From: a virus
IMG/VR virus record: IMGVR_UViG_3300046007_004659
Span: 1 to 22,708 of that record
DNA: 22,708 nucleotides
Reading direction: 5' to 3' (one strand)
The translations under genes and the position numbers were made by a program. Positions 64 to 22,625 of the stretch are shown one piece after another (within the stretch, counting starts at the first letter, position 1; each line of letters begins with the position of its first letter). The notes below the pieces were generated by a model. It was given only the letters and a program-made list of their open reading frames with translations. It was not told where the DNA came from and made no database searches.

Positions 64-3000
64 GTGGCGTTAATGCAAGCTAAAATTAGCCTTGACGCAC
101 TTGGTTCATACGCAACAGCAGAAGCCGCAAATCAAGAAAAGGTAGGTAACGAAACAGTATCTTCTGGCCGTAAGAAAAAAGACGTTGTAAAAGACATTAA
201 GGAAGAATCCGACAAAGCAAAAGCAGAGGCCGCAGATGAGGTGTCAGAAAATTTAGACGTTACCGATATTATCGACAACTCCAAAGAGCCACCAAAACCA
301 CAAAGCAAAAAAGCAAGCGGTAAGAAAGCAGAACTTGAAAAGAAAAGAAAGGCCGCAATTGACCGTGTAAAAAAAGCATTTGCTAATAAAGGTGTCGCAG
401 GGCCACTCATGGCAATTACTCCCGAAAGAGCAGAACGTATTGAGGCAATCAAAGAACTTGCAAAGGTTGAGATTGAATCAGGCTTATATACCCTCAAAGA
501 AGTAATTGCAAAACTTGCTAAAGACCTGAATGGCGTTCTTTCTAAAAAGCAGATAAGCGATGTGTTGATTGGCGAATGGAATGAACTTGCTAAGATCGCA
601 GAGGAGGCTAAACGTACTGAATCAATTGAATTACTCAAAGACGCAATTGAAAACAAAGTAAGCGATAAGGCACTAAAAGCACTTGCCAAAGCGTTAAAAA
701 TGGCTGACCCCGAATTTATCAAAACGATGAATAAGGGCAAGCGCATGAGTGACGCTCAGATTGTGGAAGAAATACTTAAAGACCCACAGAAAGCGCAAGA
801 TTTACTTTATGCGGCACTTGGGGCTTTAATTGATGATGTTAATTCAGGAAACCACTTGGATTCAGTTGGCGTAAGTAAGCCAAAGAACATGAGTGATGAG
901 GAATGGGATGCAGTAAGAAAGAAGTATGTAATTAATAAATTCAAACAGTTTGTAGATACCCTTATTCCACTTGCAGATGAGAAATCGGTATCAATGGCCG
1001 ATCAGAAGCAAAAGCAGGAACAGGAGAAATTGGAACAAGCATGGTTGAAAGCAAAAGAAAGACGGGATAAGGCCAAAGTCAATGCGGAGAAGAAAAAGGC
1101 CGACAAAGAGGCTGAAAAACTTGCAGAAGCAGAATTAGAAGCAAGAGAAAAAGAACTTGCGGAAGCAGAAAGGCTTTGGAATAATTACGTTAATGAAAAG
1201 GTTAAAGAAGTAGTTTCTAAATTCTACAAAAATCCAAATTCAAATCAGACATTTGTTGAAGCACTTGTTGAAGCCATTCCTTCGCTATCTGTACAACAGG
1301 CAATTCAAATTGCAGAAAAGGTTCAGACACATATTAACAAAAAACTTGACCAGCGCGACAACAAGAGAATTAAAGAACTGATTAACGAAATGACAGATGG
1401 TCGTGAAGATTCGTCGGTTAATGAAGTCATGCAGAAAATATTCTTTAATCGTGGCGCAATTAGTCAATTCGGATTTACCAATATGCTTTCTAAGTATCTT
1501 GGGTATAAGGGGCTACCGCAACACGCAATTGCTCAGATAACGCAACTTGCACAACAGGCGGCAAGGATGCCCGGAGGTGCTTTGCGTACTCAAATTATGA
1601 ATCAAGCCAATACTATTGCAGCAAGTTATAGCAATACTGCATGGCAAAATTTATATGAGATACTAAGCGAAACACTTGTAAGAAACTTGCTTTCTAAGGT
1701 GAAGACAGCGTTTACAGGTGGTTTCAGCGTTGGTTTCTTTGCTATACCCAATGCGATAAAAAAGACTTTAATTAATCGTCCCGCTAACACAATTAGGGCG
1801 TTAAAGTTTACGGGTAAGAATTTATACAATGGAAGATGGGGCGTTCGCAATGCCTTCATGGAATCAATGTATAGACACAATGATCCGTTTGCACAGGCAA
1901 CCGAACGTGCTGATAACATTTATTCAAAAGACAGAGCTTGGCAAAGAGCAAGAAAAGCGACATTTTCAGAGATTAAAAAGCTATGGGGTGTTGATAAGGG
2001 CAGGGCTGCTTCGATGATCGCGGGTAGGGCTTTAATTGAGGGTACTTTTCAAGGTAAATTACCTATAACCAATATCATTCCTGATGCTATGGCGTTTATG
2101 AACTACATAGCATATAAATTCATGCAGGATATGAATTTAGCTTATATGGCGCAGGACAAAACCATAATGGAAGGTATTAAGCCGTCAGACCCTAAATTTA
2201 AAGATGAGTTCTTAAAGAAACTCTCAATGACACCTGCTCAGTTAAAGAGTATAGAAACGGCAGTAGACAATGAAATAGCGCAAGCGGTATCGCAAGGCGT
2301 TCCTGTTCCAAAAGGATTCAGAAAAGATCGTATCCGTGAAATGATTGCTCAGAACACAGACGAAATGTTGTTTCAACGAGCAATGGAACAATCGGTTTAC
2401 GATATTGGTATGAATAATCCAAAAAGTGCGCTTGGTGCGTTTGCTTATGGTAATTTGAGAAAACTAAAGTTTAAACCACAAGTAGAAGGCCAACTAAGTT
2501 TCTTGGGAATGTCAATTAATTTACTTAGCACAACGCTTGGGCTTTTTAGCCGTCAGGCAATTGTTCTTGGTGAAAGAGCGGCTCAATATGCCCCAATTAT
2601 CGGTACTGCTGCTTATTTATATCCAAAAAGGTTTGATTACAAGGATAATAAATTAGTTGTGCTGAAAGATGATAAAGACGAGGCATACAATATGTATAAA
2701 TCAGACCCAAAAGAAGCCGCATATCGCATTAGTGTTTCTGTTGCGGTACTTGGTCTTGCTGCTTATATTTTGGCTAATTGGTGGGATGATGAAGAAATAA
2801 TTGATCCCGCAACGGGCGAAAAAGTTGTTGACCCCGAAACAGGAAAGCCACTTACAAGACAAAGGTATTTAATGGGCGGCAAGGTTGATTTCTTTGGAAG
2901 TTCACCAAAGATAAGAAGGGAAGACAGGGGTATTGATCCAACTAACACGATGAGAGTTTATTCAGATGATGGGACGTTTAGGGATGTTCCGTTTGAAGCA

Positions 3001-3957
3001 ATGGGTCAAATGTATGCCTTTGTAATGGGGCTTGGTCAATTAAGAGATAAACAGAGATATGGTGTTGAAAAAGTTGTGTTGGACGCAGACAAATTAAAAG
3101 ACCCAACAACAATAAAAGCCGAACTTCAACAATCGGCTGAAATAGACTGGGCTTCACTTGCAACCGCTTCTGCTGCTAATGCCGCCAATACTGATTTTCA
3201 AACAGTATCGAAAATTGTAAAAGTTCTACAAGCAAGGGAAAAGGCCGATATACCCGCAGGACTGTTTGATGTGCTTGTGATTAACCCTGCAAAAGGAACT
3301 GTAAATCCTGCTGTGGTGAGATCATTGCAAGAGCAATATTACAACATGAGTGATAGGTATAAAACCTACATTAAACTTGAAAGCGATGTACAAAATTTAG
3401 GGACATATCTTGCAAAAGACGTATGGTTTTTAGACCCGTGGATTGAAAACAGAAAAGACTATGAAAGCGTAGATATTTTTGGAAATAAAATAGCATATCC
3501 ACCTATCTATAATGATTTTCTTGGTTCTTTTGGCAGCACGACCAACTACGTTATGGCTAACCATGTAGAAGAACATAAGGATATGTACAGTCTTTTCATG
3601 GTAGATGGCAAATACATTCCATATCCCGCAAGATACATTTATAGACCATCTAAATTTGATATGGCGGGGATGGACAAATCAGTTAAAGTTGAGGATAATC
3701 TTCAACGCATGATTTCTGATAAAACCTATGAAAACTTTGGTGTTATTGTCAAGCAGAATATGGACTTAATCAAATCAGTCACCGATTACGACCAAAGAAG
3801 GGAATTACTTGATAATATGTTTGATTTTGCAAGTTATCAAGCTGTTTTATTTGCTTTTCCTAATTCACAGCGCAAGCCGTCAGATACCGAAGTTGAAAAA
3901 ACACCGCAAGAAAAAGAGGCGATGAACTCATTTACAATATCGAATTTACCTAAATAA
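64..3957 (+). CDS. Large virion-associated protein candidate (1297 aa), possibly an internal or ejected protein
   Basis: I do not recognise a named family. The first 400 or so residues are rich in Lys, Glu and Ala, with a strongly charged coiled coil at about 308-379. The middle has hydrophobic stretches at about 549-562, 816-845 and 885-905, so it may meet a membrane. The C-terminal third is mixed and globular. Size, position ahead of the lysis genes and this mosaic fit an internal virion or DNA-ejection protein of Bacteroidota phages; that is inference. The start is unsure: GTG at 64 and ATG at 73 are both possible. The frame is open back to a TAG at 4-6, and the intervening codons also look coding, so the gene may really start upstream. 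It ends in TAA, with 91 bases before the next gene. Confidence 0.6.
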   Translation: MALMQAKISLDALGSYATAEAANQEKVGNETVSSGRKKKDVVKDIKEESDKAKAEAADEVSENLDVTDIIDNSKEPPKPQSKKASGKKAELEKKRKAAIDRVKKAFANKGVAGPLMAITPERAERIEAIKELAKVEIESGLYTLKEVIAKLAKDLNGVLSKKQISDVLIGEWNELAKIAEEAKRTESIELLKDAIENKVSDKALKALAKALKMADPEFIKTMNKGKRMSDAQIVEEILKDPQKAQDLLYAALGALIDDVNSGNHLDSVGVSKPKNMSDEEWDAVRKKYVINKFKQFVDTLIPLADEKSVSMADQKQKQEQEKLEQAWLKAKERRDKAKVNAEKKKADKEAEKLAEAELEAREKELAEAERLWNNYVNEKVKEVVSKFYKNPNSNQTFVEALVEAIPSLSVQQAIQIAEKVQTHINKKLDQRDNKRIKELINEMTDGREDSSVNEVMQKIFFNRGAISQFGFTNMLSKYLGYKGLPQHAIAQITQLAQQAARMPGGALRTQIMNQANTIAASYSNTAWQNLYEILSETLVRNLLSKVKTAFTGGFSVGFFAIPNAIKKTLINRPANTIRALKFTGKNLYNGRWGVRNAFMESMYRHNDPFAQATERADNIYSKDRAWQRARKATFSEIKKLWGVDKGRAASMIAGRALIEGTFQGKLPITNIIPDAMAFMNYIAYKFMQDMNLAYMAQDKTIMEGIKPSDPKFKDEFLKKLSMTPAQLKSIETAVDNEIAQAVSQGVPVPKGFRKDRIREMIAQNTDEMLFQRAMEQSVYDIGMNNPKSALGAFAYGNLRKLKFKPQVEGQLSFLGMSINLLSTTLGLFSRQAIVLGERAAQYAPIIGTAAYLYPKRFDYKDNKLVVLKDDKDEAYNMYKSDPKEAAYRISVSVAVLGLAAYILANWWDDEEIIDPATGEKVVDPETGKPLTRQRYLMGGKVDFFGSSPKIRREDRGIDPTNTMRVYSDDGTFRDVPFEAMGQMYAFVMGLGQLRDKQRYGVEKVVLDADKLKDPTTIKAELQQSAEIDWASLATASAANAANTDFQTVSKIVKVLQAREKADIPAGLFDVLVINPAKGTVNPAVVRSLQEQYYNMSDRYKTYIKLESDVQNLGTYLAKDVWFLDPWIENRKDYESVDIFGNKIAYPPIYNDFLGSFGSTTNYVMANHVEEHKDMYSLFMVDGKYIPYPARYIYRPSKFDMAGMDKSVKVEDNLQRMISDKTYENFGVIVKQNMDLIKSVTDYDQRRELLDNMFDFASYQAVLFAFPNSQRKPSDTEVEKTPQEKEAMNSFTISNLPK

Positions 3958-9650: not shown

Positions 9651-9668
9651 CGTTTGGTGTAATACTAC

Positions 9669-9717
9669 CACCTACCGCCTTATTTCGGCGCATAGGTGTC
9701 TGCGGATTAGCACCTAT
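9669..9717. repeat. Two competing hairpins downstream of the mom-like gene
   Basis: CACCTA (9669-9674) can pair with TAGGTG (9693-9698), enclosing an inner CGCC/GGCG stem (9676-9679, 9687-9690). The same right arm, ATAGGTG (9692-9698), can instead pair with CACCTAT (9711-9717). The two folds exclude each other. It may be a 3' RNA structure of the mom transcript or the remains of a recombination site. Confidence 0.5.
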
Positions 9718-9723
9718 ATGATA

Positions 9724-9739
9724 GTTATAAGCAAGCTGC
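9724..9739 (+). repeat. Inverted repeat flanking the mom-like gene, left copy
   Basis: GTTATAAGCAAGCTGC on the + strand matches 14 of 16 bases with the reverse complement of 10576-10591. It overlaps the last base of the mom-like stop codon, so the repeat begins exactly where the gene ends. Confidence 0.6.
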
Positions 9740-10515
9740 TACGTTCCTGCTTCGTTTGACAATTCCGTTTCAAAAGAATTAAAAAAACGCCCCCCCGCTT
9801 CAACTTTTTCAAAGTTGTTAGGTTTTTCAACATAGTGCTTCGGATATGGTTTCTGTTTCAGTAATACTTTCTTTTTCCATTTGTGGTCTATCCAGTAAAT
9901 GTATCTAAATTGTCTTAGTTCTTCGCTTGTAGCCCTTTCCTTGTGGTGTTGCAAGTATGCTGCCGATTTAGATAATTTCGGGTTTCTTGTCATTAAACTA
10001 TTATGGTAAACTTCATTATCCAAAGTCCAAAATTTTGCAATATGTTCTCCATAAAAATCAAAATTCGCACCCTGATAAACTATCCCAAAACCACCGCATC
10101 TTTCATCTGCAAAACTTTGTATCCACTTTATTTTATTAAACTTGCTTCTTATGTATCTTACCGCATAGCTTATAGCCATACTTTCGCTGTTTCGTGGTGC
10201 TTTATCATCAAGCCACATTCTGTTTAATTCAAGGTATTGGTCAATTTCCGTTCCTTCAACTACGCTTCCACAGCTTGCAGGGTTCATAGCATATCCAAAT
10301 TGCAACACCCCAACTAATTCAGTTTTAATATAAACCCCTAAATGAATATAGGTAGCATTATAAAACTTCTTGCTGTAATGGTTTTCAACTATTATCTTAT
10401 TTGCCTTGTTTCTATCAAGTTCTTTGATGCTAAATTCATCAGAACCAAATCCGATAATTTCCCTTGAACCAAACATACTTTGTTGGTCGCTGTATATTAA
10501 ATCTTTTTTTGCCAT
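9739..10515 (-). CDS. mom: Mom-like adenine-modification protein (258 aa)
   Basis: The protein matches the Mu Mom family, a GNAT-like fold that turns adenine in phage DNA into N6-carbamoylmethyladenine and so blocks many restriction enzymes. Family landmarks are ENHYSKKF (44-51), YIHLGVY (56-62), GVLQFGYAMNP (69-79), ELNRMWLDD (96-104), SESMAISYA (110-118) and FADERCGGFGIVYQGANF (135-152). The length is close to Mu Mom. It is the last gene of the leftward block. The start ATG has a poly-purine leader. A run of seven G and seven T (9796-9781 on the + strand as C7 and A7) lies near the C-terminus. The gene ends in TAG and is bracketed by inverted repeats, which suggests it arrived as a unit. 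Confidence 0.85.
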   Translation of the reverse strand: MAKKDLIYSDQQSMFGSREIIGFGSDEFSIKELDRNKANKIIVENHYSKKFYNATYIHLGVYIKTELVGVLQFGYAMNPASCGSVVEGTEIDQYLELNRMWLDDKAPRNSESMAISYAVRYIRSKFNKIKWIQSFADERCGGFGIVYQGANFDFYGEHIAKFWTLDNEVYHNSLMTRNPKLSKSAAYLQHHKERATSEELRQFRYIYWIDHKWKKKVLLKQKPYPKHYVEKPNNFEKVEAGGRFFNSFETELSNEAGT

Positions 10516-10575
10516 CCCTTCTTTTTTTAATTCTTTTGTTTCGTGCTTCGTATTTAGCTTTTCGTTTAATCAACC

Positions 10576-10591
10576 GCAGCCAGCTTATAAC
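10576..10591 (-). repeat. Inverted repeat flanking the mom-like gene, right copy
   Basis: On the - strand this reads GTTATAAGCTGGCTGC, differing from the left copy (GTTATAAGCAAGCTGC) at two central bases. It is also the 3' end of the attC-like palindrome at 10583-10685. Confidence 0.6.
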
Positions 10592-10685
10592 AGCGGTTTT
10601 GTGCTATTTGCCCCATCAACATTTGTGGTAACTTGAAACTTTGTGCAAGGGGCAAACAGACACAAAGCCGCAAAACGTTATGCGC
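10583..10685 (-). repeat. attC-like imperfect palindrome upstream of mom
   Basis: Read on the - strand the parts are: GCGCATAAC (R''-like), spacer GTTTT, GCGGCTTTGTG (L''-like), then TTTGCCCC, a 34-base loop and GGGGCAAA. CACAAAACCGC (L'-like), a one-base spacer and GTTATAAGC (R'-like) complete it. Arms pair 7/9, 10/11 plus a wobble, and 8/8. Unequal spacers between the outer and inner boxes, length about 103 bp, a GTT at the 3' box, and a start on the preceding gene's stop codon are all features of integron attC sites. No integrase gene is in the window. It could instead be a hairpin controlling mom. Confidence 0.5.
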
Positions 10686-10894
10686 TATTTTTCGAGATGC
10701 CGTTCCATAGCAGAAATCAAACCACCTAAAACAGAACCGTTCTTTTCAATAAGTTCCCATAGGTATTGTTCTGTTTCTTTATAGTTTTTTTGGTAATCAG
10801 TAGCGCAAGGGTCTGATTTAAAACAGCGCATAACATCGGCTATATGCAATGCCTGCTGTCTGCTAATTTCGGTTTTTAATTCTTCTACATTCAT
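10685..10894 (-). CDS. Small unknown protein (69 aa)
   Basis: I do not recognise this protein. It is helical and charged (MNVEELKTEISRQQALHIAD at the start, ISAMERHLEK at the end) with two cysteines, and has no membrane segment. Its TAG stop overlaps the first base of the attC-like palindrome, as gene cassettes often do. A 112-base stretch without a gene separates it from ninG. Phage Mu has a small activator, Com, ahead of mom, but Com is a four-cysteine zinc protein and this one does not resemble it. Confidence 0.65.
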   Translation of the reverse strand: MNVEELKTEISRQQALHIADVMRCFKSDPCATDYQKNYKETEQYLWELIEKNGSVLGGLISAMERHLEK

Positions 10895-11006
10895 TTGTAC
10901 TAATTTTAAAGTTCAGTAATTCTAAACGCCCACCATCGCAAAGCCCTCGACCGTTATCACTCACTCCGCCATTTCCGATTCAAGGAAGGAAAGTATCAAC
11001 CGCCTC

Positions 11007-22349: not shown

Positions 22350-22358
22350 AGCCGTTAG

Positions 22359-22625
22359 TTATAGGTAATGCTTGACAAACCAACTGCGACACCTTTTACA
22401 GCTCACACCTAAATTGTCTTTTTTTGCACCACCTAAAATTGAGTCTTTTAAGTTGTCAATATTTATATCCTCGTTAATTCCGCACCCGTGAAAACTTTTT
22501 GAACCACAAACCACTTTTTCTAATGAATGGCTGTATATATGTGTTTGATATGTGCCTGAAAATTGAGCAATATCACTACCTATAACAGCACCTACCAAAA
22601 AAGCGGGCTTCTGTGGTTCATTCAT
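22359..22625 (-). CDS. Small Cys-rich unknown protein (88 aa)
   Basis: I do not recognise this protein. It has five scattered cysteines, including a possible metal-binding pair in SCKRCRSWFVKHY at the end, and VVCGSKSFHGCGI in the middle. There is no membrane segment. Its ATG overlaps the stop of the frame to the right (ATGA), so it is translated with that gene. Confidence 0.65.
   Translation of the reverse strand: MNEPQKPAFLVGAVIGSDIAQFSGTYQTHIYSHSLEKVVCGSKSFHGCGINEDINIDNLKDSILGGAKKDNLGVSCKRCRSWFVKHYL

Follow-up and report, generated by a model that had tools for sequence, protein, structure and literature searches.

A 22.7-kb virus contig in which a mom gene is preceded by a long palindrome raises the question of whether this palindrome is a plain RNA hairpin between two phage genes or a recombination site of a mobile gene cassette, and, if the latter, how the cassette is oriented and what moves it. 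The window discussed below is the whole stretch of 22,708 nt (record IMGVR_UViG_3300046007_004659); its features lie on the minus strand (Table 1). An earlier sequence-only reading of the window had proposed an attC-like site.

Direct reading of the palindrome gave the order GCGCATAAC, a GTTTT spacer, GCGGCTTTGTG, the stem TTTGCCCC/GGGGCAAA, CACAAAACCGC, a T spacer and GTTATAAGC. The layout proposed earlier (outer and inner boxes, spacers of 5 and 1 bases, an 8-bp inner stem, a 34-base loop) was therefore present as described, and so was the start of the site on the last base of the upstream stop: position 10685 ends the stop codon of the 69-aa ORF. AAC...GTT outer boxes together with an inner stem are found in canonical integron cassette sites as well; compared with attC-aadA7, the spacers here are 5 and 1 nt and the extra unpaired base is on what we take to be the opposite arm. 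As single-stranded DNA, the site folded better than its shuffles (z −2.48, equalled by 3 of 200). The blastn search showed 86–89% identity over ∼135 nt to 37 Flavobacterium phage records, with similarity beginning in the 5′ box and continuing into the 5′ region of the cassette; judged by this homology, the palindrome is far beyond chance. No match was found in Rfam or in the plasmid collection. An arms-only covariance model, which finds several chromosomal sites, recovered the window site only at E 0.011 and in a shortened register, because of the long second stem of this site.

The exact 23-nt core of the palindrome was present in 24 IMG/VR contigs; in nearly all of them the hairpin was almost unchanged while the flanks differed on both sides, varying directly outside TAAC...GTTA. 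Such sites are thus not rare in this phage group, although a cassette-like site in a phage genome had been called unusual. The pattern resembles that of the Vibrio cholerae repeats (VCR), where one highly conserved long hairpin stands before and behind many unrelated genes; unlike the VCR, the repeat described here is spread over many phages (the 24 contigs), and sequenced genomes hardly contain it (its 19-nt core was seen in only six contigs among ∼85,000 genomes).

Along the minus strand, the window carries a NinG-like gene, a diverged attC-like site whose loop contains the 69-aa ORF start, the end box AGCGCATAAC, then the palindrome, GTTATAAGC, mom, GCTTATAAC, TATCATATAG and a terminator-like region. 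Two complementary box pairs, GTTATGCGCT/AGCGCATAAC for the 69-aa gene and GTTATAAGC/GCTTATAAC for mom, stand back to back around the palindrome. The second pair had been noticed in the sequence-only reading, and the complementarity is there; the first had been overlooked, and since the upstream gene is bounded by a box pair of its own, there are two cassettes in a row. The mom product belongs to the Mom family (PF25680 at 234.1 bits, cut-off 27.1). A hairpin 3′ of mom is missing: the search of positions 9660–9745 gave a weak fold only and no GTT box. The ends of the mom unit recur around a DNA methyltransferase in phage lillamy; in lillamy9-1 a matching hairpin and the start GTTATAAGCTGGCTGCGGTTAATTAA precede the methyltransferase, not mom, and the gene closes with AGGAACGTAGCAGCTTGCTTATAAC. 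Other mom units are present in loci L004, L013 and L021. The start codons of cassette genes are often located in the hairpin loop (at 10826–10960 in the window and at many phage and chromosomal sites), so that the ORF runs through the 3′ arm and the start box. Neither the 69-aa protein nor the 1297-aa ORF at 64–3957 had relatives in the phage collection.

Table 1. Cassette-related features of the window (coordinates from its first base)
Feature	Coordinates	Strand	Remarks
attC-like site (attC2)	10583..10685	-	R″ box GCGCATAAC 10685-10677; 5-nt spacer; hairpin; 1-nt spacer; R′ box GTTATAAGC 10591-10583
Mobile unit 2 (hairpin, start box, mom, end box GCTTATAAC)	9724..10676	-	953 nt; box pair
Mom-like DNA modification gene, 258 aa	9739..10515	-	Pfam PF25680, E 1.5e-69; phrog_1384
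End box of mom unit, GCTTATAAC	9724..9732	-	Complementary to start box 10591-10583
Array end after TAAC, TATCATATAG	9714..9723	-	Fits T-N4-TATA of chromosomal array ends; putatively attI-like
Mobile unit 1 (diverged hairpin and small-gene cassette, end box AGCGCATAAC)	10677..10952	-	Box pair GTTATGCGCT 10834-10825 / AGCGCATAAC 10686-10677
Probable attC1, diverged	10826..10960	-	5′ box GTGATAAC 10960-10953; 3′ arm GGCATTGCATATAGCCGAT adjoining GTTATGCGC; weak fold
69-aa ORF, no assigned function	10685..10894	-	Start within attC1 loop
Possible third cassette body	22358..22586	-	Third complementary box pair (start box GTTATAGGTA, end box TACCTATAAC) around 88-aa ORF 22359-22625; at window edge

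A unit consists of a hairpin, a GTTATRRR box, a gene and a complementary YYYATAAC box. For adjacent box pairs of consecutive sites, the start was the reverse complement of the end at a mean of 3.56 of the five nucleotides beyond GTTA; permuted ends matched at 1.88 of five, and none of 10,000 permutations reached the observed value. The start of each cassette is complementary to its own end, so a circle would rebuild the site. A stricter parse of the phage loci yielded 279 units with 133 distinct hairpins, 177 of the units being chained directly to the next. Among 28 dissimilar hairpins the inner stem had 94% of cells paired (32–46% in slid controls) and 135 double changes (37 from shuffling); as these hairpins were picked partly for pairing, the test is better evidence for the register than for the stem itself.

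Baltic Flavobacterium phages, isolated in one study (Nilsson et al. 2020, PMC7077304), provided natural experiments. These phages have near-identical hairpins and arrays of ∼10–13 units, and whole units were gained, lost or relocated between near-identical isolates. The genomes of lillamy9-1 and lillamy9-3 (38,268 bp each) differ in that one 438-bp unit is inside the array in one and at the array end in the other, with the remaining array blocks identical; further isolate pairs differ by units of 343, 476, 506 and 794 bp. Over all 16 arrays, 52 of 57 distinct breakpoints followed an AAC at a distance of 0–6 nt; among random positions, a TAAC stands within the preceding 12 nt in 5.8%. Gene content thus varies between relatives with sharp breakpoints, as the sequence-only reading had asked of a true cassette site; breaks exactly at GTT of the 3′ box were not supported as the rule. 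The Baltic breaks lie in the AAC box, which flanks the hairpin on the opposite side, and GTT breaks were suggested only in more distant comparisons. The last gene of the Baltic arrays varies and the same end always abuts it (TACAATATTA, TACAATATTACATG); this constant array end looks as an attI site would.

Nilsson et al. 2020 (PMC7077304) tied reduced plating on LMO6 to the absence of one methyltransferase. An AXF38279-like methyltransferase cassette (loci L172 and L178–L184) was found in isolates of filifjonk, mumin, mymlan, sniff and snork, whereas the fetched regions of lillamy, morran, hattifnatt and snusmum do not contain it. This methyltransferase may be the one in question.

With a cassette-type site and circle-type complementary ends in place, one could ask whether these are ordinary integron cassettes, that is, a CALIN moved by a true IntI, in which a unit reads TTRRRY-ORF-RYYYAAC-hairpin-G and the attC belongs to the preceding gene. 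The box rule and the shape of the hairpin fit this description, and some distant pairs do break at GTT. However, in a canonical integron cassette the site comes after its gene, and the hairpin described here moves with the downstream gene. Where the same gene was followed by a different next gene (212 pairs, 28 distinct), the upstream hairpin was kept in 91% and the downstream hairpin in 3%; therefore, the moving unit is the hairpin plus the gene. The position of the break, in the AAC box before the hairpin, likewise assigns the hairpin to the gene it precedes, and the Baltic arrays terminate without a hairpin. An attC lying downstream, moving with its own gene and breaking at G^TT after the hairpin was thus not what we found, and of the earlier reading the site type and the circle-type ends stood, while the break position and the side of the hairpin did not. 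Viewed from its end, the array has the recombination geometry of an integron (TT...AAC-hairpin-G) with the genes in the opposite direction. Distant comparisons (mom in L004, L013, L021 and the window; L012/L014; L078/L088) showed hairpins exchanged relative to the gene; hence the linkage of gene and hairpin is not absolute, and recombination also takes place by cutting at the opposite box or by exchange within hairpins.

The recombinase genes bear on the same choice. No tyrosine recombinase is encoded in the window or in five complete phages (lillamy, snusmum, mumin, hattifnatt and P12002L), nor is there an IntI integrase with the family-specific insertion in the window or the phages tested; we therefore assume that the enzyme acts in trans. 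In a sample of 396 genomes of Bacteroidota (the phylum of G045), the hairpin motif TAACGN7GCTTTGNGN3GTNG occurred in 13, its reversed control in none among the genomes listed, and the regions of these 13 contained arrays of the same type with up to eight units. Tyrosine recombinase genes adjoin the array ends of loci L285, L283 and L280, the L280 copy being truncated; the full-length enzymes score 205–241 bits against NF040815 (cut-off 220) and match TIGR02249 in two pieces only, on either side of the IntI-specific insertion. Among 65 loci of XerA-like enzymes related to that of L285, a box-pair array end was located ≤350 bp from the 3′ end of the gene in 36 and near its 5′ end in one (shuffled flanks give 1.75); the same count for 26 true IntI loci gave five at the 3′ end and seven at the 5′ end. 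When a hairpin was required as well, 13 loci remained at the 3′ end versus 0 and 0 in the comparison counts. After AAC, T-N4-TATA follows in 16 of the 36 recombinase-linked array ends, and also in the window; the chromosomes show a fixed array end 47–339 bp from the recombinase with the shared motif, the window the motif alone. In the tree, IntI formed a separate clade (100/100), and the array-adjacent enzymes were spread across the XerA-like group.

An IntI scoring above the TIGR02249 cut-off is present in 105 of the 396 genomes, which would provide an enzyme for ordinary cassettes; of the 13 genomes with the hairpin motif, only G054 has one, on a different contig. Furthermore, the array-end recombinases lie outside the IntI clade and match TIGR02249 in two pieces. 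The use of the same sites by host IntI arrays was rejected as a candidate, as 40 IntI regions gave scattered weak matches. In these regions (L132–L171), arrays of this type could mostly not be recognised; attC-like repeats of other kinds are present in L171 and L167.

A further point in favour of canonical cassettes comes from Qi et al. 2023 (PMC9892861), who reported CALINs in virulent phages including Polaribacter phage P12002L, and recombination by IntI1 of one of two P12002L sites tested; the array of this phage holds a mom unit. Like our arrays, the phage CALINs occur in virulent phages of Flavobacteriia and combine attC-like sites with cassettes for DNA methyltransferases. They are read there as ordinary integron CALINs, and the main-text passages considered here mention neither unit polarity nor an array end, nor do they describe exchange between isolates or a Bacteroidota recombinase to match. 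We saw units of the same type in P12002L, including mom bounded by GTTACCCA and TGGGTAAC. Its minus strand has two separate array ends, at ∼37,210 and ∼29,230, with ∼70 nt in common (AACGGATAAAACAAGTTTTACCAAACTAAAAATGACTTAAAATC), the picture expected of a duplicated attI-like site. Taken together, we consider canonical cassettes moved by IntI unlikely.

If the palindrome were simply an RNA hairpin or terminator separating phage genes, and the genes were exchanged by homologous recombination in conserved hairpins, this would account for conserved hairpins between co-directional genes, and near-identical copies could give short homology. Yet breaks occur before the hairpin, between units with differing hairpins that share only TAAC to TAACGTTT; a terminator has no use for complementary boxes placed at the ends of genes, well away from the hairpin; and one unit was relocated to an array end without a hairpin. 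This explanation is strongly disfavoured and has very little probability. Equally improbable is IS200/IS605-like single-strand transposition into a TAAC target by a Y1 transposase acting in trans. It would suit the single subterminal hairpin and the insertion on the 3′ side of a short fixed target with which the unit also closes, but unit ends show gene-specific complementarity of ∼9–10 nt, to our knowledge no feature of that family, and the gene beside the chromosomal arrays is a tyrosine recombinase.

The palindrome is a cassette recombination site, and we hold it very probable that the phage carries an array, without a recombinase of its own, that belongs to an integron-like system apparently not described before. 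Points against this reading are the lack of a recombinase gene in the window and the five phages, the hairpins exchanged in distant comparisons, the missing hairpin 3′ of mom, the weak covariance-model score of the window site and the scatter of array-adjacent enzymes over the recombinase tree. Units are strung head to tail, and the array stops right after an AAC. In the mechanism we propose, a site-specific recombinase would cut the AAC box, presumably at AA^C within (A)TAAC (G^TT on the other strand) and probably on a folded single strand; the unit would be excised as a circle and then inserted at another AAC, the end of the array playing the part of an attI-like site. The XerA-like recombinase, or else a relative of it that the host cell supplies, would act on these sites and move the phage units in trans. 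The virus contig G036 (behind locus L081, IMGVR_UViG_3300034096_000868) has an array ending at TTACTGCTAAC followed by a recombinase ORF (61980–62744) that is XerA-like and 39% identical to the L285 enzyme; it is possibly a complete phage-borne platform.

Integrons (class 1 and the Vibrio superintegrons, with attI, attC and IntI) are similar in their tandem cassettes, near-conserved hairpin sites and complementary AAC/GTT boxes, in the recombinase gene beside a fixed array end that would receive units, and in the excision and relocation of single units. They differ in that here the genes point to the array end and the recombinase side, the hairpin precedes the gene, and the recombinase is XerA-like, without the IntI insertion and with its 3′ end toward the array (36/65 loci). 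The open papers searched, including main-text passages of Qi et al., contained no description of the reversed polarity, of such an array end or of an XerA-like enzyme in this role, and the novelty of the system is provisional.

Integrons are regarded as the main bacterial platform for shuffling cassettes. Bacteroidota were described as almost without complete integrons, having mostly cassette-less integrases and one complete integron in Salinibacter (IntegronFinder 2.0, PMC9024848), and the IntI insertion has been called essential for integron function (PMC8138268). Our results indicate a distinct cassette system in Bacteroidota, whose enzyme is without this supposedly essential insertion. It seems fairly likely that a second integron-like system, with an XerA-like recombinase instead of IntI and reversed gene polarity, is widespread in Bacteroidota, and that virulent phages carry its recombinase-less cassette arrays to swap anti-restriction genes. 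The cargo consists of mom, an anti-restriction DNA modification gene, in the window, and mostly of DNA methyltransferases and small unassigned genes in the Baltic phages. Virulent phages exchange mom and methyltransferase genes by cassette, and near-identical isolates of one sea differ by single cassettes. Cassette exchange is thus a concrete route to rapid change in restriction evasion, one that is testable with existing phage isolates.
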